A stretch of DNA of 64,000 nt, from NCBI RefSeq assembly GCF_018736065.1, contig NZ_CP076129.1:1116001-1180000 (forward strand). The letters run 5' to 3'. Below the pieces are notes generated by a model. It made no database searches and was not told the DNA's origin. It saw only the letters and a list, made by a program, of their open reading frames with translations. The stretch comes from Flammeovirga kamogawensis. Its GTDB lineage: Bacteria; Bacteroidota; Bacteroidia; Cytophagales; Flammeovirgaceae. Position 1 is the first letter of the stretch. The number at the start of each line of letters is the position of its first letter. This document shows positions 36,351 through 64,000 of the stretch, piece by piece. The position numbers and the translations under genes were made by a program.

Positions 36351-37700
36351 ATGAAAATTAATAACAAACTTTTACTCTTGCTTGTGGCATTACTTGGTTA
36401 TTTAGCCACGAATGCACAAACATACGATCAACCAGAATTATCTGAGAGCGTGCAATATGCACTAATTATTGGTACAGATAAGTACGATGGAAAGCCCATG
36501 TGGCCAAACCTAGATAATGCAGAAAATGATGCAAAGAGCATTAATACAGTATTAAAAAAAGAATATGATTTTTCTACAAAATTATTATTATCTCCAACTT
36601 TAGAAGAGGTGGAGAAAGCAATTCTTACGTATCATCAGTTCATAAAACCTAAAGATAGGTTTCTAATATATATTGCTGGCCATGGAGATTATGATCAAAA
36701 ACAATTTGATGATGGATTCCTAGTATTTAAAGACAGTAAAACCACAAGAAAAGATCCTACTAGAAAATCTTATCTTCAGTACAGAAGGTTAAATGGTTTA
36801 TTAAACGCTTTAGAAGCAAACCATGTGGCATTGGTATTAGATGTTTGCTTTGGAGGGAGTTTTAATGAAAAACTAAGAGATGAAACACCTAAATATAGAG
36901 GTAAGGTAGAAGATGAAATGGTAACGGGTCGTTTTCTTAAAAAGAAGATGAATAAGGTGACAAGGGTTTATTTAACATCTGGTGCTTTAGAAAGAGTATC
37001 TGATGGTGTTGATGGACATTCTCCTTTTTGTAGTGCCATTCTCAATGTTCTTGATAACGACCAGAACACACTTTTTACATTATCTGATGTACACCAACAG
37101 ACAAAACGATCGATGTCGGAAAGTATGTACGGTTCTTTTGGTAAAAATGAGTTAGGAAGTGAATATATTTTTAGCAGATCAAATTCTTCTACATTGTCCA
37201 ATGTACAGACAGGGAAAGAGGAGATTGCTATGGAAAATAATTTAACAAGAGGCCAGAAAAAAGAAGATAATATTCTACTCTATTGTATCGTCTTGGTGAT
37301 CGCAATTGGAGCTACGATCAACTTTTTTGTTATTAAAAAGCGTAAAGAACAACCTCAAAATTCAGAAGAGGAGGTAAATCAAATAGTACCAGAGAAAACA
37401 GAAAGTACCTCTACAGAAAAAGCTGAACTTGTAGAAGTTGAAGAGTTATTACCAGACACGGTAGAAGGTCAATTATCATCTATAACAAAAAGACCTTTTG
37501 ATCAGATAGAGATAAAAAATAAAGTTGAAGTGGAACATCAATTAAAATTGTATACCATCCATCAAAAAAATCTGCGTGCAGCATTAGAAGCAAAAGCTAA
37601 ATATGGTGATATGGCACCTCCAATTTTAATACATAGAATAAATGATGCGAAAGCAGAATTGGAGAAAATAAAAACGGAACTACTGAAATACATCCAATAA
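36351..37700 (+). CDS. membrane-anchored caspase-like (C14) protease with C-terminal coupling module
   Basis: A 449-residue protein. Parts in order: signal peptide (1-23, ending NAQ); caspase-like domain (about 33-275) with SVQYALIIGTDKYDG, catalytic His111 in YIAGHGDYD and Cys166 in LVLDVCFGGSF; membrane helix (about 307-328) followed by basic KKRK; acidic linker (335-380); helical C-terminal module (394-449). By the positive-inside rule the protease should be periplasmic and the C-terminal module cytosolic. The module contains KAKYG at 415-419, then M-x-P, and is repeated in the next gene, which overlaps this one by one base (TAATG). This points to physical coupling of the two proteins. The function is unknown; it resembles the effector part of bacterial conflict or cell-death systems. 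Confidence 0.85.
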   Translation: MKINNKLLLLLVALLGYLATNAQTYDQPELSESVQYALIIGTDKYDGKPMWPNLDNAENDAKSINTVLKKEYDFSTKLLLSPTLEEVEKAILTYHQFIKPKDRFLIYIAGHGDYDQKQFDDGFLVFKDSKTTRKDPTRKSYLQYRRLNGLLNALEANHVALVLDVCFGGSFNEKLRDETPKYRGKVEDEMVTGRFLKKKMNKVTRVYLTSGALERVSDGVDGHSPFCSAILNVLDNDQNTLFTLSDVHQQTKRSMSESMYGSFGKNELGSEYIFSRSNSSTLSNVQTGKEEIAMENNLTRGQKKEDNILLYCIVLVIAIGATINFFVIKKRKEQPQNSEEEVNQIVPEKTESTSTEKAELVEVEELLPDTVEGQLSSITKRPFDQIEIKNKVEVEHQLKLYTIHQKNLRAALEAKAKYGDMAPPILIHRINDAKAELEKIKTELLKYIQ

Positions 37701-38728
37701 TGGAACATAACAAAGCAACATACTATATAGGTGGATCAAAATTTAATTTGATCTATGACGATATCACTCAGGTACCATCAGATGCTATTGTGAGTTCTGA
37801 CGATGAAATGATTACAATGGGTGGAGGAGTATCTGCCACTATCCGTAGAAATGGTGGTCCATATATTCAAGAAGATGCTCAAAAACATACAGCTCTTTCT
37901 TTGGGTGACGTAGTGGTTTCTTCGGCAGGGACTTTACAAATGAAATATGTTTTCCATGCCATAACTATAAACTACCAAAATGAAGAGTACCTTGATGAAG
38001 ATGCTCTAAAAATGATTATGGATAATGTGCTTTCATTAAGTAAAGCACTAAAAATAAAAAGGATATCGTTACCTGCAATTGGAACTGGAGCTGCACGGTT
38101 TAGCTTTACTGATGCTGTGAAGATTATTACACAATCAATTGCCTCATTTTTACAACAAAACGAATGTATCGAAGCCTTTAATTTATGTCTTCTAAAAGAT
38201 GATGACGTAACCAAGGAAAAGGTGAATAAATTGTTTGAAGAATCTGTAAGTTACTTTTCTATCTCTCAGCAAAATAATACAATTAAAAACTTATTGACAG
38301 AAGCCAACGAGTCGTTAAAAGTACAAGAGAAAGTGGATGTTGCTTTAGTAAAAAAACTAGAAGATGGTTTTGCTAGAATTAATGAAATTGAGCAAACAAA
38401 AAGTAATGTAATTTTACCAAATTCAATTCCTACTTTATTAGAGGATCTTGGATTCCTACATGAACTTCTACATTCTGTAAATACAAATAAGCACAGAATA
38501 GAACAATTAAGAGAGGATAAAAATGTGTTAGAGCAGAAAATGAACTACCAAAGAACTGCTTTAAGGCATTATGAACTAGAAAAAGCGAAGTATGGCGGAG
38601 AGATGGTTCCTTTTAGATTATTAATGCAAATTGAAGAAGTTGAAAAGGAAATAGATACTACAGAAAAAAGCATAAATGAGATGAATGCTGAATTAAAATC
38701 TTATATTGAAGTAGCAGGTTTGAAATAA
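37700..38728 (+). CDS. macro-domain protein with the same C-terminal module as the caspase
   Basis: A 342-residue cytosolic protein. A macro domain (about 12-185) is shown by IYDDITQVPSDAIVSSDDEM, MGGGVSATIRRNGGP, LSLGDVVVSSAGTL, YVFHAITINY and LPAIGTGAARF, the loops that hold ADP-ribose or a related nucleotide. In place of the usual N-A-A-N after DAIV it has S-S-D-D, a form I associate with macro domains of bacterial conflict systems rather than housekeeping de-ADP-ribosylases. A helical linker (186-270) leads to a C-terminal module (281-335) with KAKYG at 295-299 followed by M-x-P, matching the module of the upstream caspase protein. Start overlaps the caspase stop. Likely a nucleotide sensor or eraser that talks to the caspase (inference). 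Confidence 0.85.
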   Translation: MEHNKATYYIGGSKFNLIYDDITQVPSDAIVSSDDEMITMGGGVSATIRRNGGPYIQEDAQKHTALSLGDVVVSSAGTLQMKYVFHAITINYQNEEYLDEDALKMIMDNVLSLSKALKIKRISLPAIGTGAARFSFTDAVKIITQSIASFLQQNECIEAFNLCLLKDDDVTKEKVNKLFEESVSYFSISQQNNTIKNLLTEANESLKVQEKVDVALVKKLEDGFARINEIEQTKSNVILPNSIPTLLEDLGFLHELLHSVNTNKHRIEQLREDKNVLEQKMNYQRTALRHYELEKAKYGGEMVPFRLLMQIEEVEKEIDTTEKSINEMNAELKSYIEVAGLK

Positions 38729-38746
38729 GAATCAAATAATAGAATA

Positions 38747-39034
38747 ATGAAAAAAAGACCTACTGGTAAAACTATTGGGGGACGTGCTTTTGGGACTAAA
38801 AAAATATCTAAAGCAGAAGAGTTAAGAGGTGTTCAAGATGTTATAGTTGATAAGTTTGACCGCTTAGCTCGTACTCGAAAAGATTTAGAATTAGATAAGC
38901 GATTAGGAAAAGAGATACGTGCTTATTTAACGAAAAGAAGAGAGCGAAAAATGCCTGTAGATCAGAAAATGCTAAAGCAATATATTGTACAGCTTAAACG
39001 AAAAATGCTTCAAGAAATCACTTTTAAAAAGTAA
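38747..39034 (+). CDS. small, very basic protein of unknown function
   Basis: A 95-residue protein rich in Lys and Arg (KKRPTGKTIGGRAFGTKK at the start; RLARTRKDLELDKR and TKRRERKMPVDQK later), predicted mainly helical. No family is recognised and no signal peptide is seen. It starts 18 bases after the macro gene and is followed 38 bases later by a GH3 gene, so it is part of the same run. Its charge suggests binding to nucleic acid, phospholipid or an acidic partner such as the acidic linker of the caspase protein; this is inference only. Confidence 0.75.
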   Translation: MKKRPTGKTIGGRAFGTKKISKAEELRGVQDVIVDKFDRLARTRKDLELDKRLGKEIRAYLTKRRERKMPVDQKMLKQYIVQLKRKMLQEITFKK

Positions 39035-41130: not shown

Positions 41131-42027
41131 ATGAAAAACTATTTCACTCTACTTTTGCTATTAAAAGCAACATTACTTTTCTCTCAAGATACAATAACAC
41201 CGAAGGGTCAATCAAAAATGAAATGTATTTATATGCATACATTTCAACCTTTTGTAGATGACACAACTAAAGTAAACGAAAAGTTTGTTTTGTATTTGAA
41301 TGATCAATTTTCAGAATACAATAACTATAATGATTATTTAATTGGTATTGAGATAAAACGAGCTTATGCAGCAAGCAAATTAGATAAAAATAGTTCTGTC
41401 TTCGATATTCTAAATATGAAACTGGATAACATTTCAGAGCCGGAGAGTAATAATTTTAAAGTATTTAAAGACAATACTTCTCAAAAAGTAATTTATACAC
41501 ATGGCTTTGGTGTGCTTTGTTCATTTTAAGAAAGTTATGATGAAATGATTTGGGAAGTAACAGATGAAAGCAAAATTATAGATAACAATCATTGTATTAA
41601 AGCATTAACAACTTTCGGTCAATATAAATTTGAAGCATGGTTTACACCTGAAATTCCAATTGCTGACGGACCATATATGTTTAGAGGGTTACCAGGTTTG
41701 ATTGTTGCTGTGAATGATACTCAAAATTTACATAAGTTTGAAATGATAAGTATTGAAACCGATACTACTTATGAATTACGAGACACATCAACTGGTAGAG
41801 AATTTCTTAATCCTATTAAACAAAAGTTAGCTTTAAGAAATGTAATAAAGCAAAAAAATAAACTTGAAGCAGGTTATGATATAAGTTTTGACTTTACTTC
41901 AAAACATAGAATTGAAAGACCATACCTTGAAGATTCATCTGAAGAAAACATTAAAAAACAAAAATTGAAATATACTTTATATGACTATCTACTTTTTAGA
42001 GAATACACTCTTCAAAAAGGTCTTTAA
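41131..42027 (+). pseudogene. GLPGLI family secreted protein interrupted by one in-frame stop
   Basis: The frame from the ATG at 41131 (signal peptide MKNYFTLLLLLKATLLFSQ) stays open to a TAA at 41527-41529 and continues in the same frame to 42027. The second part holds the family core: WEVTDESKIIDNNHCIKALT, FEAWFTPEIPIADGPYMF and RGLPGLIVAVND. Together the two parts give about 297 residues, the normal size for this exported Bacteroidota family (TIGR01200). There is no frameshift, only the stop. GLPGLI proteins are usually paired with a downstream outer-membrane beta-barrel protein with a carboxypeptidase-regulatory-like domain; here that neighbour is also broken. Readthrough or a sequencing error is possible but less likely given the state of the neighbour. 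Confidence 0.8.
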
Positions 42028-43948: not shown

Positions 43949-44057
43949 CCCAATGTTAAACCTAAATAATTTCTTCAGGTAATCTTCAATCAATTTTATT
44001 ACTCTCATTAATAGAAGTGTTTTTTGTTTGCAAAACCCCTATTAAAACAAATAATTT

Positions 44058-45464
44058 TTAATTGATAGGATGGATATAAGCTGGGTTTACTCTTGGTAAC
44101 TCTGCATTGGTATCCTCTTTCCATTTTTGAAGAAGTGCACTCAACTCTTTAATTTTTTGAGGTAAAACATTAGTTATTTCATTTTGTTCATAAGGGTCCG
44201 TGGTTAAATCAAATAATTTATAGGTATTGTTTTCCACAAACTCAGTCATTTTAAAACCTTTATATTGAATTACATTCACCCACTCAGCGGTAAACTTTTT
44301 ACTTTTTTTATTGAATCGAGAATAATTTGTGTATTGCCAAATAAGCTTTCTATCAGCAATTAACTTCTTTTCACCTGTTGTAATAGGCTGTAAATTCACC
44401 CCATCAAGTACATGTTTTTTTGGTAGAAGCGTGTTTGTAAACGATAAAATGGTGGGATAAATATCTACGTGAATTATTGGAGAAGTAGAAACCTGGTTTG
44501 CTTTAATCTTCTTACTATATTTCATGATATAAGGTACTCTTATACCTCCTTCTAACGTATTGCCTTTATAACCTTGGTAAGGTTTTGTAAACATTCCATT
44601 GCTTGTTTTATAATGCCCATTATCCGAAGCAAAAATTATTAAAGTATTGTCTTCAATATTTAACTTTTTGAGACTAGAAAGAACCTTAGCAACACTTTCA
44701 TCAAGGTTTTTTATCATTGCCAAAACTTTCGTTGTTTCTTCATCAAAGTTATATTTATCTTTAAAGTAGGTGTAAGTTTCTAGTTTTGGTTCTAAGGGTT
44801 TATGTACTAAATAGTAAGGTAAAAACAAGAAAAATGGAGTGTTGTTATTAACTTGTTTCTCTATAAATGCAATCCCTTTTTTTGTAATATAATCCGCATT
44901 ATAATCATTTTCTAGAACATCAGTTTGTGTAGGAAAGTGCGTAAAGTTATAATGCTTTTTTGTTTCAATGGCTTCATCAAAACCTTGGTTTTGCATACTT
45001 AACTCTTTGGTACCAAGGTGCCATTTCCCAAAACCCGCAGTTGCATAACCATTTTCTTTTAATGCTTCCGGAATTAATACTTTATCTAGACTTAAACCAA
45101 CCCCTTTTCCATTCGGTTTATTGTTTTCTGGAGGCAAATATTGCATGTTTTGAAGTGTTGCCTGATCTTTTTTGTACCGGTCAGACACTCTATATATTTT
45201 ATGACGAGGAACATACTGACCTGTCATAATAGAAGCTCTTGATGGGGCACAAGTAGGATCGTTAGAATAAGCATTTGTAAACCGAATACCTTCTTTTGCT
45301 AATTGATCTATTGCAGGAGTTTCTACAAAATCATTTCCATAACACCCTAGTGCATTTACTCCTAAATCATCCGCTAAAATAAATACAACATTTGGACGAT
45401 CTATTTGAGCAAAACAATGTATAGAAGCTAAAAGAATGACAACAATATTTAGCATTGATTTCAT
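44058..45464 (-). CDS. S1 family sulfatase, exported
   Basis: A 468-residue arylsulfatase-fold enzyme. I start it at the ATG at 45464, which gives a proper signal peptide (MKSMLNIVVILLASIHCFAQ) and lies one base after the stop of the upstream sulfatase, so the two are translationally coupled. The active-site Cys72 in TCAPSRASIMTG is the residue matured to formylglycine; the metal-binding start is FILADDLG, and GKWHLG and FASDNGHYK are further active-site pieces. S1 sulfatases remove sulfate esters from glycans such as carrageenan, ulvan, fucoidan or host glycans. The target is unknown. The maturase is not in the window. Confidence 0.93.
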   Translation of the reverse strand: MKSMLNIVVILLASIHCFAQIDRPNVVFILADDLGVNALGCYGNDFVETPAIDQLAKEGIRFTNAYSNDPTCAPSRASIMTGQYVPRHKIYRVSDRYKKDQATLQNMQYLPPENNKPNGKGVGLSLDKVLIPEALKENGYATAGFGKWHLGTKELSMQNQGFDEAIETKKHYNFTHFPTQTDVLENDYNADYITKKGIAFIEKQVNNNTPFFLFLPYYLVHKPLEPKLETYTYFKDKYNFDEETTKVLAMIKNLDESVAKVLSSLKKLNIEDNTLIIFASDNGHYKTSNGMFTKPYQGYKGNTLEGGIRVPYIMKYSKKIKANQVSTSPIIHVDIYPTILSFTNTLLPKKHVLDGVNLQPITTGEKKLIADRKLIWQYTNYSRFNKKSKKFTAEWVNVIQYKGFKMTEFVENNTYKLFDLTTDPYEQNEITNVLPQKIKELSALLQKWKEDTNAELPRVNPAYIHPIN

Positions 45465-45465
45465 T

Positions 45466-47085
45466 TTAATTGATGAGGTTAACGGATACAACTTCAGATT
45501 CTTTATAACCAATACGAATTGCTTTAACTTCTATTTTTGATGCCTTATTAATAGCAATAGGAGTTGTATAAAGTTTCCATTTTCCTCCATTTATTTGATA
45601 CCCAATTGATGCACCCTGAGTTGAGCAAGTTAAAGTGAGGAGATTAGCATGAATACTAGTTTTTACCTTATTTGTAACAGGTTGCTGATTATTTGGCCAC
45701 ATTGAGGTAATCATTTCAGCTTCAGGCTGAATACATAAATCAGGAGTTTGTTTTTGCCATTTTGCTAATTGTTTTCTGAAACGCTTAACTTCTGCTGAAT
45801 AATTTTGATGATGAATTAAATTGACTGTTTCGTAAGGATCGATTTCTAAATCGAAGAGCTGTTCTTTCTCTTGTAAAGGGCTAAACCATTCCGCCTGTAT
45901 TTGATTTAATTCTCCATTTAAGTACGCATTTTTAAGGTTTTCCATAATTGGTACTTGGATTCTATATGCTATATCTTGATAGCTAGAAGGAATAGGGAAA
46001 AGGTATTTTACATATAAATATTTTCCATCTGTAACACTTCTTCTTGCTGATGTAAACTCGTCCATTCGATCTCTAGCGGCAAAAGAATACTTTCTTGACG
46101 TCTTTAAAATACTTTGTCCTTGTATGTGTTTAGGAATTTCAACTCCAGCCATTTCTAAAACGGTGGGAGCAAGGTCAATAAAATTAATCAGTTGATCTGT
46201 TTTACCACTATTTACACCTTTAGGGTATTTGATAAAGAAAGGGACATGCAAGCCAGAAGCAATAACTTCTCTTTTCTGACGTGGAAGAGGGCCTCCATGA
46301 TCAGAGAAAAAGAAGATAATTGTATTGTCATATAGATCATCTTCTTTTAATTGATTAATAATTTTAGCAACACGTTTATCTAAAAGCTCCAAATTACTAT
46401 ACATTCTAGCTAAATCTGTACGGGTTGTGTCGTTATCAATATAGTATGGAGGAACAGGTACATCTTCTTTTGCTACAGTTAGAGGCAGGTGCTTATTTTT
46501 CCAAATCTTAGATTCGTGTGTTTCATTAAAATTAAATACAGCAAAGAACGGTTGTCCTTCAGCTCTATTCCTCCAATGTGCCTTACCATCGTTTTCATCC
46601 CAAGCAGTAAATGGAGCTGCAAACTGATAATCTGTTTTTGCATTATTCGTAGTGTAGTATCCATTTGCTCTTAGATATTCTGGGAAACATTTTACTTCTT
46701 TGGGAACTACTGCACTGTACTCTCTAACATTATTATTTTCTCTATCTACAACATTTTTATTCTCTCTATATTTCCTGCTTCCTATACCAGTAATATCTCT
46801 GCCTGTTCGCATATGATTTGTACCAATTGTACTTGGGTACATTCCAGTTATAATTGCACTTCTACTAGGTGCACATACACCAGCTGTAGAAAACGCATTC
46901 ATAAAAATCTTACTCTCTTTTGCTAACTGATTTATTGTTGGAAGTTGAGCTGTGCTATCTCCATAAGAGGGTAAGTAAACACCAGTATCTTCAAAAGAAA
47001 TCCAGACAATGTTGGGTTGCTTTTTCTGAGCAAATGTAAAGGAAACTACTTGTGAAAAGAATAGATAAAATAAAAGTGTTCTCAT
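45466..47085 (-). CDS. S1 family sulfatase, exported
   Basis: A 539-residue sulfatase with signal peptide (ends TFAQ). Catalytic Cys71 is in GVCAPSRSAIITGMYP. The metal-binding region reads WISFEDTGVYLPSYGD, that is Glu-Asp in place of the more common Asp-Asp, a variant found in several S1 subfamilies. FFFSDHGGPLPRQK is the late metal/substrate motif. The last ~80 residues form a small extra beta domain (INGGKWKLYTTPIAINKASK), resembling a chitobiase/beta-hexosaminidase C-terminal (FN3-like CHB_HEX) domain, which is an uncommon add-on. First gene of the minus-strand pair. Confidence 0.92.
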   Translation of the reverse strand: MRTLLFYLFFSQVVSFTFAQKKQPNIVWISFEDTGVYLPSYGDSTAQLPTINQLAKESKIFMNAFSTAGVCAPSRSAIITGMYPSTIGTNHMRTGRDITGIGSRKYRENKNVVDRENNNVREYSAVVPKEVKCFPEYLRANGYYTTNNAKTDYQFAAPFTAWDENDGKAHWRNRAEGQPFFAVFNFNETHESKIWKNKHLPLTVAKEDVPVPPYYIDNDTTRTDLARMYSNLELLDKRVAKIINQLKEDDLYDNTIIFFFSDHGGPLPRQKREVIASGLHVPFFIKYPKGVNSGKTDQLINFIDLAPTVLEMAGVEIPKHIQGQSILKTSRKYSFAARDRMDEFTSARRSVTDGKYLYVKYLFPIPSSYQDIAYRIQVPIMENLKNAYLNGELNQIQAEWFSPLQEKEQLFDLEIDPYETVNLIHHQNYSAEVKRFRKQLAKWQKQTPDLCIQPEAEMITSMWPNNQQPVTNKVKTSIHANLLTLTCSTQGASIGYQINGGKWKLYTTPIAINKASKIEVKAIRIGYKESEVVSVNLIN

Positions 47086-47564
47086 GGTATTCTGTTGTTT
47101 TTAAATGAAAAAAGGTGAGAAAAATTATACATTATCCTCACCAGTTTTGTAATTAGAAGTAGTCACAATAAAAATATAAATGTATTCTAAATCAATAGAT
47201 AATTAGAATGGTTTGTTAAACAAATGTAGAATGAATACGTCAAAATGTGGATGAATAAACGTTCCAAATACACCACGAATGATTCTTAAACTATTTATAT
47301 AGTCTAATTGATTAATATATAGGTGGTTATAGTTTTTTAAGGTAATTTTATTGAACCATAATTCAACCTAGTAGAGTAATTATTTAACATACAAAAAAAA
47401 TGAAAACTGTAAAATTGTAATATCAAAACAAATTAGTATTGATTGTATTCAGAAAACGGATACTGATTTTATAGATCAAGATTTAACTTCCCTAATTTAT
47501 CATGTAAACATTTAGTTGTTTGTTTGGTGAGTTAGAATATTACAACTTTTTAATTTAAGTAGAA
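47086..47564. other. divergent intergenic region between sulfatase genes
   Basis: A 479-base non-coding stretch between a minus-strand and a plus-strand sulfatase. It must hold the promoters of both units. I see no clear -33/-7 pair, repeat or regulator site. Confidence 0.5.
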
Positions 47565-49205
47565 ATGAATAGAATTCTTATCAACTTAACCGTATTATCT
47601 GCATTTATCACGTTGTTTGGTTGTGCTAAAAATACGCATGAAACAACAAAGGCAAAACAGCCAAACATCATTTTTATTATGAGTGATGACCATGCTACAA
47701 ATGCAATTTCTGCTTATGGTGGAAGGTTAGCAGAACAGTTCCCAGATCTTACTCCAAATATAGACCGTTTGGCAAATGAGGGAATGATAATGCAAAACAC
47801 TTTTTGTACTAATGCAATATGTGGCCCTTCAAGAGCTGCGATATTAACAGGTAAATTTAGTCATGTAAATGGCTTTTTTAAAAACGAAAGTGGAGGAGAC
47901 TTTGATGGTACGCAACAAACATTCCCAAAGTTATTACAGAAAGCAGGTTACCAAACAGCAGTTATAGGTAAATGGCATTTAGGTACTGCACCAACTGGAT
48001 TTAATTATTCTAAGGTAATGATTAACCATGGTGGACAAGGAACTTACCACAACACAGTTTTTTTAGAGAACGGAAAAGATACTGTTCAAGAAAATTCTTT
48101 TCACTCTACAAGACAAGTTTGGGAAGATGCAAAGAAATGGTTAACTGGTGGTAGAGATCAAGAAAAACCATTTATGTTGATGTATCAGTTTAAGGCACCA
48201 CACAGACCTTGGACTCCAGATGAGCAATTTCAACATGTATTTGATGATGTTGAGATTGTAGAGCCAGAAACATTTAATGATACTTATGAAGGAAAAATAG
48301 CTGCAGGTAATACATGGCAAACTATAGAAAGAAATTTAAATAGAAAAGACTTGAAAGTAGCTCCTCCTCATCCTGAAACAATGACAAAAAAGGAGATTGC
48401 AGCTTGGTACAAGTACGGTAATAACAACGAAGAACCATGGTCGCCAAATGATGAACTGAAAGGACAAGCATTAAAAAAATGGAAGTACCAAAAGTACATG
48501 AAAGAATACTTAGGGTGTGTGAAAGGTGTGGACCATTATATTGGTGAGATGTTAAACTATTTAGATGAAAATGGACTTGCTGAAAACACAATTGTAATTT
48601 ATACTTCTGACCAAGGTTTCTATTTAGGCGAGCACGGTTGGTTTGATAAACGAATGATGTATGAAGAGTCATTTAAAATGCCTTTTTTAATTCGTTACCC
48701 AAATCATATTGCACCAAAAACAGTGTCTAAGAAGTTAGCAATGAACGTAGATTTTGCACCAACACTTTTAGATTTCGCAGGTGTAGAAATTCCTTCAGAT
48801 ATTCAAGGTAGAAGTATTAAATCAATTGTTGAAGGTGAAGAACCAGAAAATGATTGGAGAGACGCAGTGTATTATCATTATTATGAATTCCCTTGGTGGC
48901 ACCATGTTTTACCTCATTACGGGGTAAGAACAGAAAGATATAAACTAATTCATTTCTACTATAATCCTGAAATTGCAAAAGAGCAATGGAGAGAAAATGA
49001 TTGGGAATTATTTGATCTAGAGAAAGACCCGAATGAGTTACATAATCTTTATGGTAAAGCAGGTTATGAAGAGATAACACAACAATTAAAAACCAAATTG
49101 CAAGCAATGCAAAAGGAGTACAATGAGGATTCTCAAGAAGATATGATGAAGAAAACAGACATCCGTATTGGTAGAGTGTACGAGCATGCAAAATATGGAA
49201 AATAA
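47565..49205 (+). CDS. S1 family sulfatase lipoprotein
   Basis: A 546-residue lipoprotein (lipobox LFGC, Cys20). Metal-binding FIMSDDHATN, catalytic Cys86 in AICGPSRAAILTGKFS, GKWHLG and YTSDQGFYLGEHGWFDKRMM are standard. The GEHGWFDKR motif and the long C-terminal YYHYYEFPWWHHVLPHYGVR segment are reminiscent of the S1 group that contains N-acetylglucosamine-6-sulfatases and related exo-sulfatases, but the subfamily should be set by alignment. It is a single gene with its own terminator and is transcribed away from the other two sulfatases. Confidence 0.93.
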   Translation: MNRILINLTVLSAFITLFGCAKNTHETTKAKQPNIIFIMSDDHATNAISAYGGRLAEQFPDLTPNIDRLANEGMIMQNTFCTNAICGPSRAAILTGKFSHVNGFFKNESGGDFDGTQQTFPKLLQKAGYQTAVIGKWHLGTAPTGFNYSKVMINHGGQGTYHNTVFLENGKDTVQENSFHSTRQVWEDAKKWLTGGRDQEKPFMLMYQFKAPHRPWTPDEQFQHVFDDVEIVEPETFNDTYEGKIAAGNTWQTIERNLNRKDLKVAPPHPETMTKKEIAAWYKYGNNNEEPWSPNDELKGQALKKWKYQKYMKEYLGCVKGVDHYIGEMLNYLDENGLAENTIVIYTSDQGFYLGEHGWFDKRMMYEESFKMPFLIRYPNHIAPKTVSKKLAMNVDFAPTLLDFAGVEIPSDIQGRSIKSIVEGEEPENDWRDAVYYHYYEFPWWHHVLPHYGVRTERYKLIHFYYNPEIAKEQWRENDWELFDLEKDPNELHNLYGKAGYEEITQQLKTKLQAMQKEYNEDSQEDMMKKTDIRIGRVYEHAKYGK

Positions 49206-49251
49206 ACAATAATAGTAGCTTAGTTAGAGTAATAATAATAGTTAGAAATAG

Positions 49252-49283
49252 AAAGTCACCAATAGCTTATTGGTGACTTTTTT
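49252..49283 (+). terminator. rho-independent terminator of the third sulfatase
   Basis: A perfect 13-bp stem (49252-49264 with 49268-49280), 3-base loop and a T run. Confidence 0.9.
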
Positions 49284-49456
49284 ATGTGATTACAATTCTT
49301 CTCGAATCATATAAAGTATATGAATATTAGTGATTTATGTAGAATTTTCTGTTTGATTTGAAAACTACTTGATGCTAACTTTTAGAATGAAATCACTATT
49401 TATTATTTTAATTGGGTAAAATATTTAACGAGCACCATAATTTTATAATCATAGAA

Positions 49457-57425: not shown

Positions 57426-59627
57426 TTACTTCCCTTCTTCAATAGTAGGGCTTGCCTTTAAATGAAAGATATATTCTCCGCCTTCATGACCAACATTTCG
57501 TAATGGTTTACCTTGTGGTTCTTGCATTGTATTACTCATTACTGTTTGCCTTACATATAATGCGATACTTGAAATTGTCAGTTTTTCTATCGTATTGTTT
57601 ACTAGGTATTTTGTCAAATAATGATTGAATGGACTATGTTCTCCTGCATTACCATCAGATACTTCTGTTAAACCACCAGATGATAATCCCCATCTCGATT
57701 TAAAGTTTTCTACGCGTTCTGCGTACATCATACCTCTTGATTTTGTGGCAAATAAAGAACCAGAGAAACACGCATCTGCTATTAAAAGCGTATGTTTAGT
57801 ATTTAATCCTTTAATGTAATTCAGAATTGTGGTGTTCGATAAATAAGAAGACATATCATCTTGAGACATTGCAGCACTTGCTGGTACCCAATAACCTTCT
57901 TGTGTGAAATCGTCGTAATAACCATGACCTGAATAATAGATTAGAAGTTTATCTTCTTCACCAATTTTAGTATTGATCTCCCTTACCATCTTCGAAATAT
58001 TTGATTTAGTAACATCACCGTTATAAATCTCAAAAACATTCTCTTTATCGTAGTGGTAGTAAGTGGTTAAAACGTCTTTAATTTTTTTTGCATCGTTTAC
58101 TGCATTTACTAATGGAGTCCATTGTTGATAATCGTTACATGCAATTAACAATAAGTAGTTTTTACCCTGTTGTACTGTTTTTACAGCAACTGCAGGAGTA
58201 GAAGCAGTAGATTCAGATTGGTCTAAGTTCAATACAAACTCTTGCATATCTGATCGGTTATTCAGAGAATCTTGAATCATTACTCTAAACTTATTCTGAG
58301 GAGCTTTAATTGTTTTAAACCCTCTAGATACTGCATTAGGTTTTTCGTAGTGCACAGAAATTTCAACCTGAACACCTTCACCTGGTCCTAAATCTTTTAT
58401 TTCTACTGCTCTATCAAATGATAAACCAGGAACAGACATTGTTGGTAATAACTTTACTATAGGTTTTACAGCAGCTCCTTTACCCCAATTATCAACTCTT
58501 AATTTTATTTTCCCAGAACCCCCTTTTGATAAAGTTGTCACACCTCCTTCATATTCAAAAGCCAAATCAGACATCATTAATTCTGCAGGTGCAGACGGAA
58601 CATTTGCTGGTTTTGGTACAACAGCAACAGGAGTACTTGGTGCTGATGGAGCAACAGTAGGCGTAGGAATAGGTTGTGTAGAAGCAGGAGTACTTTCAGA
58701 AATTGTAATACTTTCTTGGGCAAAACCTGTAGTTGGCGGAATTAATCTTTCTGTAGAGGTTATTGCTAATGTTTCTCTTACATTGTCCATGTGGTCTATT
58801 AAAACCAACGTTGTTTGTAAGAATTCAAATGCATCTGTGGCATTTTTATCTCCAGAAGCAGCCTTATCTATATATGGTTTTGCCATTTTTAAAAGCTCGG
58901 TAGCTTTCATATTATAAGCAAGACTAGATTTTTCAAAATCTTCTAGAGATAGTTCATTAATCTTATTGATTTCTGCAACAGCTTGGTTGTAAAAAACAGT
59001 ACCCAAGTTATAATTAGCATCAAGATGATTTATGTCTAAAGTAGTAGCGATTTCATAATTATCAATTGCTTTTTCAATAGCACCTGTATTCTGATAGATC
59101 ACGCCAAGTGTATAAGCAAATTCTGGATTTTCACTTGTAGGCACTATTCTTTCTAGTAATTTTTGAGCTTCTTCAATTTGATTATTCTCAAAATAAGTAG
59201 CTAATAAAGGACCGGCATAAGCATCGCTATTATTTGGATATTGATTAACGCCAATTTTCAATAATTTTACCAATTCTTCTCCTTCTGCATTAGTTACAGC
59301 ACTCATAAACATAATTTCTGAGTACTCATTAAAAGCAGGGGATGTGTATTTAAATACCGATGTAAACTCTTCTTTTAATTGTTCAAAAGAGTCGTTATTA
59401 TTGGCATAAGCAGCAGATAGTGCTCCTTCTAAATATGCTACAGAATCAGTAGGTAATGTTTCTTTAGCTTTAATGAAATCTTGTAATGCATTTTGGAACT
59501 CATCTATTTCGTACCAATCACGTGCATTTTTCATGTGTTTTTCCCAGATTTCTTCTACACTTTGTGCTTGTGTAAGAAACGGAAATAACAAGAAAAGGAA
59601 ACAGTTTAAAATTACTTTATATTTCAT
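57426..59627 (-). CDS. secreted TPR protein with C-terminal caspase-like (C14) domain
   Basis: A 733-residue exported protein (signal peptide ends QAQ). N-terminal TPR repeats (about 30-290: ARDWYEIDEFQNALQDFIKA, EFAYTLGVIYQNTGAIEKAI, DANYNLGTVFYNQAVAEI) are followed by a Pro/Ala/Thr-rich linker (about 305-345), a CARDB-like Ig domain (about 350-465: LSKGGSGKIKLRVDNWGKGA) and the caspase domain (about 485-725) with His568 in YYSGHGYYDD and Cys620 in ADACFSGS. All parts of the protease dyad are present. It is the last gene of a minus-strand operon, five bases after a large secreted protein and close to a PD40/OmpA protein. The site would be the periplasm or outer membrane. Its target is unknown. 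Confidence 0.88.
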   Translation of the reverse strand: MKYKVILNCFLFLLFPFLTQAQSVEEIWEKHMKNARDWYEIDEFQNALQDFIKAKETLPTDSVAYLEGALSAAYANNNDSFEQLKEEFTSVFKYTSPAFNEYSEIMFMSAVTNAEGEELVKLLKIGVNQYPNNSDAYAGPLLATYFENNQIEEAQKLLERIVPTSENPEFAYTLGVIYQNTGAIEKAIDNYEIATTLDINHLDANYNLGTVFYNQAVAEINKINELSLEDFEKSSLAYNMKATELLKMAKPYIDKAASGDKNATDAFEFLQTTLVLIDHMDNVRETLAITSTERLIPPTTGFAQESITISESTPASTQPIPTPTVAPSAPSTPVAVVPKPANVPSAPAELMMSDLAFEYEGGVTTLSKGGSGKIKLRVDNWGKGAAVKPIVKLLPTMSVPGLSFDRAVEIKDLGPGEGVQVEISVHYEKPNAVSRGFKTIKAPQNKFRVMIQDSLNNRSDMQEFVLNLDQSESTASTPAVAVKTVQQGKNYLLLIACNDYQQWTPLVNAVNDAKKIKDVLTTYYHYDKENVFEIYNGDVTKSNISKMVREINTKIGEEDKLLIYYSGHGYYDDFTQEGYWVPASAAMSQDDMSSYLSNTTILNYIKGLNTKHTLLIADACFSGSLFATKSRGMMYAERVENFKSRWGLSSGGLTEVSDGNAGEHSPFNHYLTKYLVNNTIEKLTISSIALYVRQTVMSNTMQEPQGKPLRNVGHEGGEYIFHLKASPTIEEGK

Positions 59628-61980: not shown

Positions 61981-64000
61981 TTAGTTGTTGATAGAAAGAA
62001 CCATTAATTCTACTCTTCTATTTTTGGCCTTATTCTCTTCCGTATCATTTGTAGTTGATGGTTGAGATTCTCCATATCCTCTAGGGGCAAGTCTTGCTCT
62101 AGGAATATTGAATTGCATAACATACATGGCTACAGTTTGTGCTCTACTTTCAGATAGTTTCTGATTATAATTTTCAGCCCCTACATCATCAGTATGTGCG
62201 GCAAGTTCAACAACAATGTTTGGGTTATCCTTCATTAGCTTAACCAAACGCTTTAATTCTTTGTAAGAACTTTCTATAATTTCTGAAGAATTAGATTCAA
62301 ATAGAATGTCTTTTAATGGTAGCTTCGTATTTGGCTTTAACTCGGTAAGTGCAACATCAAAGTTTTTCTTTTTACCCGCTTTTAGTTTAGAAGAGAAGAA
62401 AGAATACCCTCTAGGACTACGTACTTCAACTTGATAATTTGCACCATCTCTAACTTCAACTTTATATTTACCATCGGCCCCCATTTCTGCAGGAATGGCA
62501 ATACGTTCGTCTGTTTCTGTGTTGTATAAGAAAATCATTGCTTCTAATCCTTCTTGTGTTGCGGCATCGGCAATGTTAAACTCTAATTCTACTTTATTTG
62601 GGGCTAATTCAATAGATTTTTGGAACTTTTGATAAAGTACAAATGAGCTTAAATCAAAATTAAAAACAGATGGCTTAAAGTTATTTTTTGAGATTGTTAG
62701 CTCATATTTATCACCAATTGGCAACATGAGGTGTTTTACATTCTCTTTTTCAATAATTTCAATATCAGTAATAATTTCTTGAGTAGTTAAACTTTTGATT
62801 TGTATATCGGCATTGATTAATTCCATTAAATCCGCATCATAAATTTCTAACTCTAAATCAGTACGGTCAAAAAGTCCAATATCTTTATTAATTTGTTTGT
62901 ATTCTTCTAGTTCCGTTAAATCTTCCGAGAAGATAATATTAGAATAGCCTTCTGCATTTACGCTCGCTTCGTAGTCAATTCCTTCTGTTAATACTAAAGC
63001 ATACTTACCATCTTCGGCAACGGGTAAATCAAATAGTTTTTCTGTTGTAGATCTATCCCTTACACTAATAGTTGCAGATACAGGTGAGTTATCATCGGTA
63101 TTAAATACCTTACCTTGGAAAGTTACGTTTTTATATAGCCTGAAATGTTCTGGTATAAAAGCAGTAAATATATCTTCCTGCCCTTTCATATTTGGGTATT
63201 TCTTTAAAACCTTAGGGTCAACCTCTCCATCATTTAGGAAATAGAGTGTTTCTCCAGATGCAGAAATAGAAGCATATAAATCGTCTCTTTCAGTATTTAC
63301 AAAATCTAAGTTTACAGGTTCAGACCATTCTCCATTAAAACCTAATTTAGACATCCATAAATCGTATTTTCCTTTACCTCCTGCACGAATAGAAGAGAAT
63401 ATTAAAGAACGCCCATCTGATAAGATTCTAGGGGCCTTTTCACAACCTAAATTAATAGGAGCAGGTAATAATACAGGTTCTCCCCAATTTCCTTTTTCAT
63501 CTTTCTTAGCTACTTTAATACTAAAACAACTACTACCTAAAGAGTTTGTACTTACAGTATCGAAACAAATAAAATACATACTTTGCCCATCTGCACTAAC
63601 ACTTGGGAAACCTTCATAAAGTGCTGTATTAATAGGAGCTCCAATATTTTTAGGAGAACTCCATTTATCACCAATACGAGTTGAATAGAAAATATCTTCT
63701 GAACCTAAACTCTCTTTAAACGAGGCAAAATAATAAAGTGTGTTACCATCATAAGAAATCGAAGGACCACCAATTAAGTCATTCGCTTCACCATAATTAT
63801 TGATGCTATCTAAAGATACTGGGTCAGTCCATGTAACACCATTATCAGGTGTTGTTGTTTCATAAATTCCCCAACGGTTATTTTCTCCCATATTTGCTTG
63901 AAAAATCATGATATTTCCTTCAGCATTTAGGGTAGGAGCGTATTCTCTAAAACTACTAGAACTTACATTGTCTGGTAATTTTTTATACTCTCGTTGAGCT
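61981..64000 (-). CDS. PD40-repeat/OmpA-family outer-membrane protein (5' partial)
   Basis: The frame is open to the window end (upstream residues read YKKLPDNVSSSSFREYAPTL, a PD40 start), so the N-terminus is missing. Visible: WD40-like PD40 blades (GGPSISYDGNTLYYFASF, EGFPSVSADGQSMYFICFD, KAPRILSDGRSLIFSSIR, DLYASISASGETLYFLND), a carboxypeptidase-regulatory-like domain (VTFQGKVFNTDDNSPVSATI), further beta modules and a C-terminal OmpA peptidoglycan-binding domain (LFESNSSEIIESSYKELKRL, AAHTDDVGAENYN, LSESRAQTV, ENKAKNRRVELM). The layout recalls PorE of the type IX secretion apparatus, which has TPR-PD40-regulatory-OmpA parts, but many paralogues exist, so no symbol is given. First visible gene of the operon with the TPR-caspase. 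Confidence 0.9.
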   Translation of the reverse strand, partial: AQREYKKLPDNVSSSSFREYAPTLNAEGNIMIFQANMGENNRWGIYETTTPDNGVTWTDPVSLDSINNYGEANDLIGGPSISYDGNTLYYFASFKESLGSEDIFYSTRIGDKWSSPKNIGAPINTALYEGFPSVSADGQSMYFICFDTVSTNSLGSSCFSIKVAKKDEKGNWGEPVLLPAPINLGCEKAPRILSDGRSLIFSSIRAGGKGKYDLWMSKLGFNGEWSEPVNLDFVNTERDDLYASISASGETLYFLNDGEVDPKVLKKYPNMKGQEDIFTAFIPEHFRLYKNVTFQGKVFNTDDNSPVSATISVRDRSTTEKLFDLPVAEDGKYALVLTEGIDYEASVNAEGYSNIIFSEDLTELEEYKQINKDIGLFDRTDLELEIYDADLMELINADIQIKSLTTQEIITDIEIIEKENVKHLMLPIGDKYELTISKNNFKPSVFNFDLSSFVLYQKFQKSIELAPNKVELEFNIADAATQEGLEAMIFLYNTETDERIAIPAEMGADGKYKVEVRDGANYQVEVRSPRGYSFFSSKLKAGKKKNFDVALTELKPNTKLPLKDILFESNSSEIIESSYKELKRLVKLMKDNPNIVVELAAHTDDVGAENYNQKLSESRAQTVAMYVMQFNIPRARLAPRGYGESQPSTTNDTEENKAKNRRVELMVLSINN

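Follow-up and report, generated by a model that had tools for sequence, protein, structure and literature searches.

A caspase and macro-domain gene pair of Flammeovirga with related C-terminal hairpins: a possible link across the inner membrane

The window analysed here, a 64,000-nucleotide stretch of Flammeovirga kamogawensis DNA, contains two overlapping genes whose products, a caspase-domain protein and a macro-domain protein, end in related helical hairpins. The most economical reading of this pair is a switch that works from the inside outwards, in which a cytosolic macro-domain reader would dock on the tail of a membrane-anchored caspase and, by pairing of the two hairpins, control a protease domain on the outer side; we give this reading a probability of about 0.4. 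If it is true, a cytosolic signal of the ADP-ribose type would be passed to a periplasmic protease. Published adaptor domains link adjacent bacterial effector genes, and no case in which the partners lie on opposite sides of a membrane was found in the papers searched.

Organization of the gene pair

Both ORFs lie on the forward strand and share base 37700 within the sequence TAATG, in agreement with the one-base overlap given in a preliminary description of this DNA. Pfam searches identify Peptidase_C14 in the first protein (E 2.4e-17) and Macro in the second (E 7.9e-20), and the C-termini of the two proteins match no Pfam model above its cut-off. The features are as follows.

36351..37700 (+): caspase gene, 449 aa; signal sequence, caspase domain, linker, one membrane helix, basic flank, disordered tail and helical hairpin
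36351..36419 (+): predicted signal peptide of the caspase, aa 1-23, from sequence and hydropathy; no cysteine and therefore no lipobox
36456..37184 (+): caspase (C14) domain, about aa 36-278, with His111 and Cys166
36897..36902 (+): R183-G184, candidate autoprocessing site in the loop that follows the catalytic Cys (modelled with low confidence); invariant in 7/7
37248..37253 (+): R300-G301, candidate self-release site in the juxtamembrane linker of the caspase
37278..37346 (+): predicted membrane helix, aa 310-328, followed by KKRK at 329-332 (hydropathy)
37521..37691 (+): C-terminal helical hairpin of the caspase, aa 391-447, with KAKYG at 37593-37607
37700..38728 (+): macro-domain gene, 342 aa, its first base shared with the caspase stop codon
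37712..38224 (+): macro domain, about aa 5-175; Asp21 and the TG129-130 loop present, NAAN and GGVD residues absent
38225..38491 (+): helical linker of the macro protein, aa 176-264; model partly of low confidence
38492..38710 (+): C-terminal helical hairpin of the macro protein, aa 265-337, with KAKYG at 38582-38596

Between genomes that carry both genes, dN/dS values of 0.04-0.09 indicate purifying selection on each of them. The upstream neighbour of the pair is a divergent gene for a PLP-dependent decarboxylase. Downstream, ORF 38747-39034 (+) encodes a small basic protein; it was considered as a member of the system and rejected, as it is present in 9/9 Flammeovirga genomes (G000-G008) and adjoins the pair just in G000 and G002. 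In G001, the start of a 16S rRNA gene (L003 1-171, -) lies about 0.65 kb past the macro gene, and the contigs of G004, G005 and G006 end about 0.3-0.6 kb from it.

The shared C-terminal hairpin

The preliminary description held that both proteins end in the same helical module, marked by KAKYG at residues 415-419 of the caspase and 295-299 of the macro protein and followed in each by M-x-P. The KAKYG positions are correct and the proline is invariant, but M-x-P is not general. KAKYG itself is invariant among the macro proteins, whereas the caspases have just A-K-(Y/H)-G in common. The likeness of the two modules is borne out by profile searches, a shuffle test and predicted hairpin folds, the pairwise resemblance of caspase and macro protein being weak (BLAST E 0.11, 14/43 identical).

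A profile built from the seven caspase hairpins alone (A1) gives 16 matches at E<=0.1 in nine whole genomes, namely the seven caspases, which are the profile's own rows, seven macro proteins and two truncated proteins (the stubs discussed below). There is one macro match for each pair-bearing genome (7/7; E 5e-6 to 0.0019), and it is always the product of the adjacent macro gene. The reverse profile (A2), built from the macro hairpins, recovers the caspase in one genome of seven (G003, E 0.0037); A2, like A4, contains six of the seven macro proteins, that of G005, whose hairpin equals that of G001, being omitted. Only in G003 is each hairpin of the pair the other's best match. Profile-profile comparison of the two hairpin families gives E 2.7e-8 and a probability of 95%.

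In the shuffle test, the caspase hairpins of G000, G001 and G003, the three examined, each align locally with macro hairpins at a score above all 2000 shuffles, with the observed score taken as the best of seven macro hairpins and the shuffled score as the best of four representatives. For the G007 stub hairpin, 203 of 2000 shuffles reach the observed score, and its likeness to macro hairpins does not rise above that of shuffled sequences. Chance likeness of the two C-termini is rejected on the A1 genome search and this test. A control database of 1075 ORFs contains loci chosen for their resemblance to the module, and its E-values are therefore not used as proof.

AlphaFold2 predicts a two-helix hairpin at the end of each protein. 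The conserved G and P flank the turn, and the helices span residues 391-421 and 424-447 of the caspase and 240-298 and 305-337 of the macro protein. The most conserved 16-residue segment of the macro protein sits in its hairpin (15/16 invariant). The caspase hairpin, with 14/59 invariant positions against 141/244 in the caspase domain, is the less conserved of the two. Among solved structures the hairpin has no match above noise (best E 0.37), and a Pfam scan of 10 hairpin sequences at E<=10 returns four unrelated single matches and no EAD model.

Predicted membrane topology

An N-terminal signal sequence, a hydrophobic helix at residues 310-328 and KKRK at 329-332 are all present in the caspase, as had been described with the helix at 307-328. 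The placement of the protease outside the inner membrane and of the module in the cytosol, which the preliminary description drew from them, is supported as a prediction by the signal peptide, the single helix and a basic flank on the inner side. Each of the seven caspases has an N-terminal hydrophobic stretch without cysteine. One strong helix is found in 9/9 proteins, stubs included, with 3-5 basic residues within the 15 positions after it compared with 0-3 before it. The basic excess behind the helix, although present in 9/9, amounts to one residue in five of the nine, and this slightness counts against the inside-to-outside reading. None of the seven macro proteins has a hydrophobic segment.

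Of 29 caspase-profile proteins surveyed in 28 loci and the window, none but the pair caspase has a strong hydrophobic helix beyond residue 60. The hydropathy threshold of this survey, 1.8, misses weak signal peptides, including that of the window caspase itself (1.5); L162 and L163 gave no listed caspase and L103-L105 were left out. By eye, most of the surveyed paralogues also begin with a hydrophobic stretch. Caspase topology and localization are treated in the accessible text of PMC3501461 and PMC10907252, with PMC13236601 as a further source.

The caspase domain and candidate cleavage sites

The predicted model of the caspase resembles the MALT1 paracaspase fold, and the His/Cys dyad, H111 (AGHGD) and C166 (DVCFGG), is kept in 7/7 caspases. 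The C14 profile, the fold and the dyad place the protein among the caspases, and it would be expected to act as a protease. No solved structure matches it in a phmmer search at E<=0.01.

Only two Arg/Lys-Gly dipeptides are common to all seven caspases, R183-G184 and R300-G301. Both lie in low-confidence segments of the predicted model, which are probably exposed. The linker just outside the membrane has four invariant residues among its 28, and R300-G301 supplies two of them. At the R183 loop, RG is found in 21 and RS in four of the 25 rows of the paralogue alignment A8 that have a caspase domain; the two stub rows, which lack this domain, are not counted, and seven of the 23 paralogue loci L038-L060, all with stops, are omitted (L042, L051, L053-L056 and L059). 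In the alignment that includes the two stub rows, these are misplaced at the membrane helix, where the caspase model may be weaker as a result. For orthocaspases, cleavage after positively charged residues is reported in the available part of PMC6426788; by analogy with them, and given the conserved RG sites, the pair caspase may prefer a basic P1 residue. On their sequence, the two conserved dipeptides are candidate cleavage sites. As there are just two, one after the catalytic Cys and one beside the membrane, self-release by autocleavage is plausible.

Caspases are numerous in the genus, with at least 9 to 17 matches in each of the genomes G000-G008; these counts are lower bounds, the 12 listed for G000 lacking the pair caspase and at least three others. 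High copy numbers of metacaspases/orthocaspases in one Bacteroidetes genome are reported in the accessible text of PMC3501461. Many members in Flammeovirga have hydrophobic N-termini and varied C-terminal regions, and the family appears to be an expanded set of secreted caspases. By eye, the C-terminal regions of these other caspases are SPOR-, Sel1-, propeller- or leucine-rich-like.

The macro domain: reader or hydrolase

Profile and fold (Foldseek 7e-14) agree in assigning the second protein to the macro-domain family. In 7/7 pair macro proteins VSSDD replaces VNAAN and GGVS replaces GGVD; NAAN and GGVD are found in 19/19 aligned macro-only relatives, and Asp21 and the TG loop in all 26 proteins. 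This alignment (A7) omits four of the 23 macro-only loci L008-L030, namely L016, L017, L023 and L027, the last three with stops. The roles of NAAN and of the GGVD Asp are known from MacroD work, and the pair macro proteins have neither of these marks of a MacroD-type ADP-ribosylhydrolase. NAAN also contacts the ligand in many macro domains, so that with its loss ligand binding itself may be gone.

The best fold match of the domain is macroH2A1.1 (E 7e-14), an ADP-ribose reader. Likeness to readers of this type lies in that match and in the absence of the MacroD-type NAAN and GGVD residues; the pair protein differs from them in its bacterial origin and in the long helical adaptor attached to it. 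Matches to bacterial MacroD-type structures are almost as good (one at 3e-13), so the fold does not separate reader from hydrolase. Judged from its residues, the domain is probably an ADP-ribose binder and more likely a reader than an eraser. Pfam detects no other effector domain fused to it.

Distribution and linkage

The pair is present in 7/9 Flammeovirga genomes (G000-G006). Among 147 relatives, a full-length macro protein and a tailed caspase occur in these seven only, and there side by side. That the two genes belong together, as the preliminary description supposed, holds throughout: they are adjacent in 7/7 genomes with either full gene, with overlaps of 1, 4, 11 or 14 bases.

The same description raised the occurrence of the module on other proteins. 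A profile search does find it on the macro partner in 7/7 genomes, but convincingly on no protein outside the genus in 395 genomes of the phylum and 390 of the order. Against the phylum genomes, profile A3 (8 of 14 hairpins) matches its own genome and gives four marginal matches (E 0.001-0.009), all inspected and apparently unrelated; against the order genomes, A6 (10 of 16 hairpins) matches nine Flammeovirga and 23 other genomes at E 0.006-0.1, and the seven loci inspected look unrelated. Plasmids yield no module match and viral contigs no relative, and a peptide-pattern search of genome contigs returns four loci, all from Flammeovirga. Within the nine genus genomes (E<=0.1), the hairpin profile matches, besides the pair and the stubs, just an 808-aa frame in G008 (E 0.052). 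A widespread module was thus not found in the phylum, order, plasmid and viral scans, in which sensitivity is limited by the short profile; the genome searches combine a loose first pass with a profile from one genus, which distant members can escape. Similar K-x-Y-G...P hairpins are presumably carried by TIR, CHAT and STAND proteins of other phyla, and the genome searches here were made within the phylum.

A natural deletion in two genomes

G007 and G008 lack the caspase domain and the macro gene, yet encode a protein of 144-148 residues with the membrane helix, basic flank, tail and hairpin.

L073 1483-1917 (-): stub protein (helix and hairpin) of G008
L074 1237-1683 (+): stub protein (helix and hairpin) of G007

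The stub gene adjoins the GNAT acetyltransferase gene that in G003 comes after the pair. BLAST aligns the G007 stub with the tail of the G003 caspase at E 5e-15. In the RpoB tree G003, G007 and G008 group together (moderate support, 82/75), apart from the other six genomes. With this grouping, the pair is most simply regarded as ancestral to the genus and lost once. No caspase or macro remnant better than E 0.28 was found near the stubs.

The two stubs are 46-49% identical. Their dN/dS, estimated from 144 codons with high dS, is about 0.45, compared with 0.04-0.09 for the pair genes. This fast evolution, together with the lost macro likeness of the G007 hairpin, fits a relaxed constraint after loss of the partner. 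The persistence of an anchored hairpin without caspase and macro protein in 2/9 genomes counts against a strict or purely dedicated coupling, and the hairpin of the stubs may have another partner. The stub N-termini lie near the point at which a cut after R300 would leave an anchored fragment.

Proposed mechanism and alternatives

Under the inside-to-outside reading, the caspase would be exported and held in the inner membrane by its one helix, with the protease outside and the hairpin tail inside. The macro protein would stay in the cytosol, bind ADP-ribose or a relative without hydrolysing it, and dock on the caspase tail, its helical hairpin pairing with the homologous one there. Such docking, dependent on the ligand, would cluster or release the tails, whereupon the outer protease would act; activation might involve a cut after Arg183, in the loop beside the active site, and release from the membrane a cut after Arg300. 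In place of the extracytoplasmic-looking C-terminal modules of the other caspases of the genus, this protein would have a helix and an adaptor extending to a cytosolic reader. A fuller version, in which a cytosolic nucleotide reader controls the extracytoplasmic caspase through the hairpins, the caspase frees itself at the juxtamembrane Arg-Gly and the G007/G008 stubs are retained anchored fragments, is doubtful as a whole.

Several observations argue for signalling outwards. The A1 profile picks out the partner within whole genomes, the genes are adjacent in 7/7 and the topology signals are present in 9/9. The caspase keeps His and Cys, the macro domain has lost the MacroD-type residues and the macro hairpin contains the best conserved segment of its protein. 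Both genes are under purifying selection, and the G007 stub hairpin, from a genome without the macro gene, has no macro likeness above that of shuffled sequences. Finally, the pair caspase is the single one of the 29 surveyed with a strong hydrophobic helix beyond residue 60, and it has two conserved RG sites only, one of them common in the paralogues. Against this reading stand the success of A2 in 1/7 genomes, the reciprocal best match in G003 only and the less conserved caspase hairpin.

An identical anatomy would serve if the macro protein were a brake, bound to the tail and keeping the outer protease apart or inactive until loss of the macro protein, or its ligand, frees the protease. Overlapping genes favour an equal supply of the two proteins, and the joint absence of the macro gene and the caspase domain from G007 and G008 would be expected if an unrestrained caspase is harmful. 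This absence probably reflects one loss event, however, and retention of the stub is unexplained unless it is a leftover; a brake seems rather unlikely. The signal could also travel inwards, the caspase meeting an envelope signal or being cut, and its tail then releasing or recruiting a macro protein that is active in the cytosol. A cut at the membrane-proximal RG would alter the anchored fragment, the stubs resemble such a fragment, and other caspases of the genus look extracytoplasmic with envelope-type domains (by eye). Yet a macro domain without the hydrolase residues has no evident effector activity, and there is no other effector domain on the macro protein, so that inward signalling appears improbable.

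Each hairpin could instead be a private dimerization coiled coil, alike through an old duplication and without contact between the two proteins. Two-helix hairpins are simple, single sequences show little similarity (E 0.11), the caspase hairpin goes undetected by the macro profile in 6/7 genomes and the stub stands alone in two. The resemblance is nevertheless found in every pair-bearing genome and is gone in the G007 stub, and separate coiled coils are considered unlikely. With the natural deletion in G007/G008 and the conserved candidate cleavage sites, the model of outward signalling could be tested in this genus with few constructs.

Comparison with known systems

The preliminary description knew of no system with this design. 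The coupling principle has in fact been published: in EADs, one small domain is carried on adjacent gene products, and coupling by homotypic contact is proposed in the accessible text of two papers (PMC7159879, 2020; Kaur et al., 2021, PMC8195603). The division of the partners across a membrane was not found in the literature as far as the sources could be accessed, and nothing closer to a caspase-macro membrane pair emerged from a search that reached few subscription papers.

As in the EADs of these sources, the hairpin is a small, non-catalytic, mostly helical terminal domain, copied on the adjacent gene product and accompanied by caspase or nucleotide-related domains. Unlike the EADs described there, it is accompanied by no core NTPase/VMAP/GAP1 component in the pair or the scanned neighbours and matches no Pfam EAD model; nor does either protein contain a Pfam domain of the EAD core fusions (VMAP, iSTAND, Ubl, GAP1). 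It also differs in that each pair genome has two copies, carried by proteins that are predicted to have their domains on opposite sides of the membrane. The hairpin would seem to work like an EAD; with no named model, no core component found and two copies per pair genome, it is left outside that group.

According to the available part of PMC8195603, the variable C-terminal domains of EACC2/caspase-type genes include macro domains. The pair shares with the EACC1- and EACC2-caspase two-gene systems, as presented in the accessible text (PMC7159879, PMC8195603), two adjacent genes, a caspase and a membrane element. It differs from them in that neither protein has an EACC domain and the caspase itself bears the signal peptide and helix. 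Against the model of EACC1-associated caspases, the pair caspase scores 67.5 bits, below the cut-off of 140; in the position of an upstream EACC1 gene lies the divergent decarboxylase gene, and the pair is not placed in that group. A caspase domain and, in part of the family, an N-terminal hydrophobic segment are features of bacterial metacaspases/orthocaspases (Asplund-Samuelsson et al., 2012, PMC3501461, available text), from which, as there described, the pair caspase differs in its C-terminal membrane helix, inward adaptor tail and macro partner.

The role in a conflict system suggested in the preliminary description is without local support, since nine proteins near the pair match no PADLOC model (E<=1e-3, G000 neighbourhood only). 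Ten window proteins were scanned, nine of them between 30184 and 43834, with ORF 41545-42027 left out. The generic PADLOC caspase model matches the pair caspase and a second caspase 19 kb away.

This second window caspase (57426-59627, -) ends in a Peptidase_C14 domain (6.1e-17) and also has TPR-like matches and, by eye, a CARDB-like region; it lies in a run with a gene for a PD40/OmpA-like protein (61981-63909, by eye). The window segments 1-34000 and 44000-49300 contain, by eye, SusC/SusD-like, glycoside hydrolase and sulfatase genes, and look like polysaccharide utilization loci.
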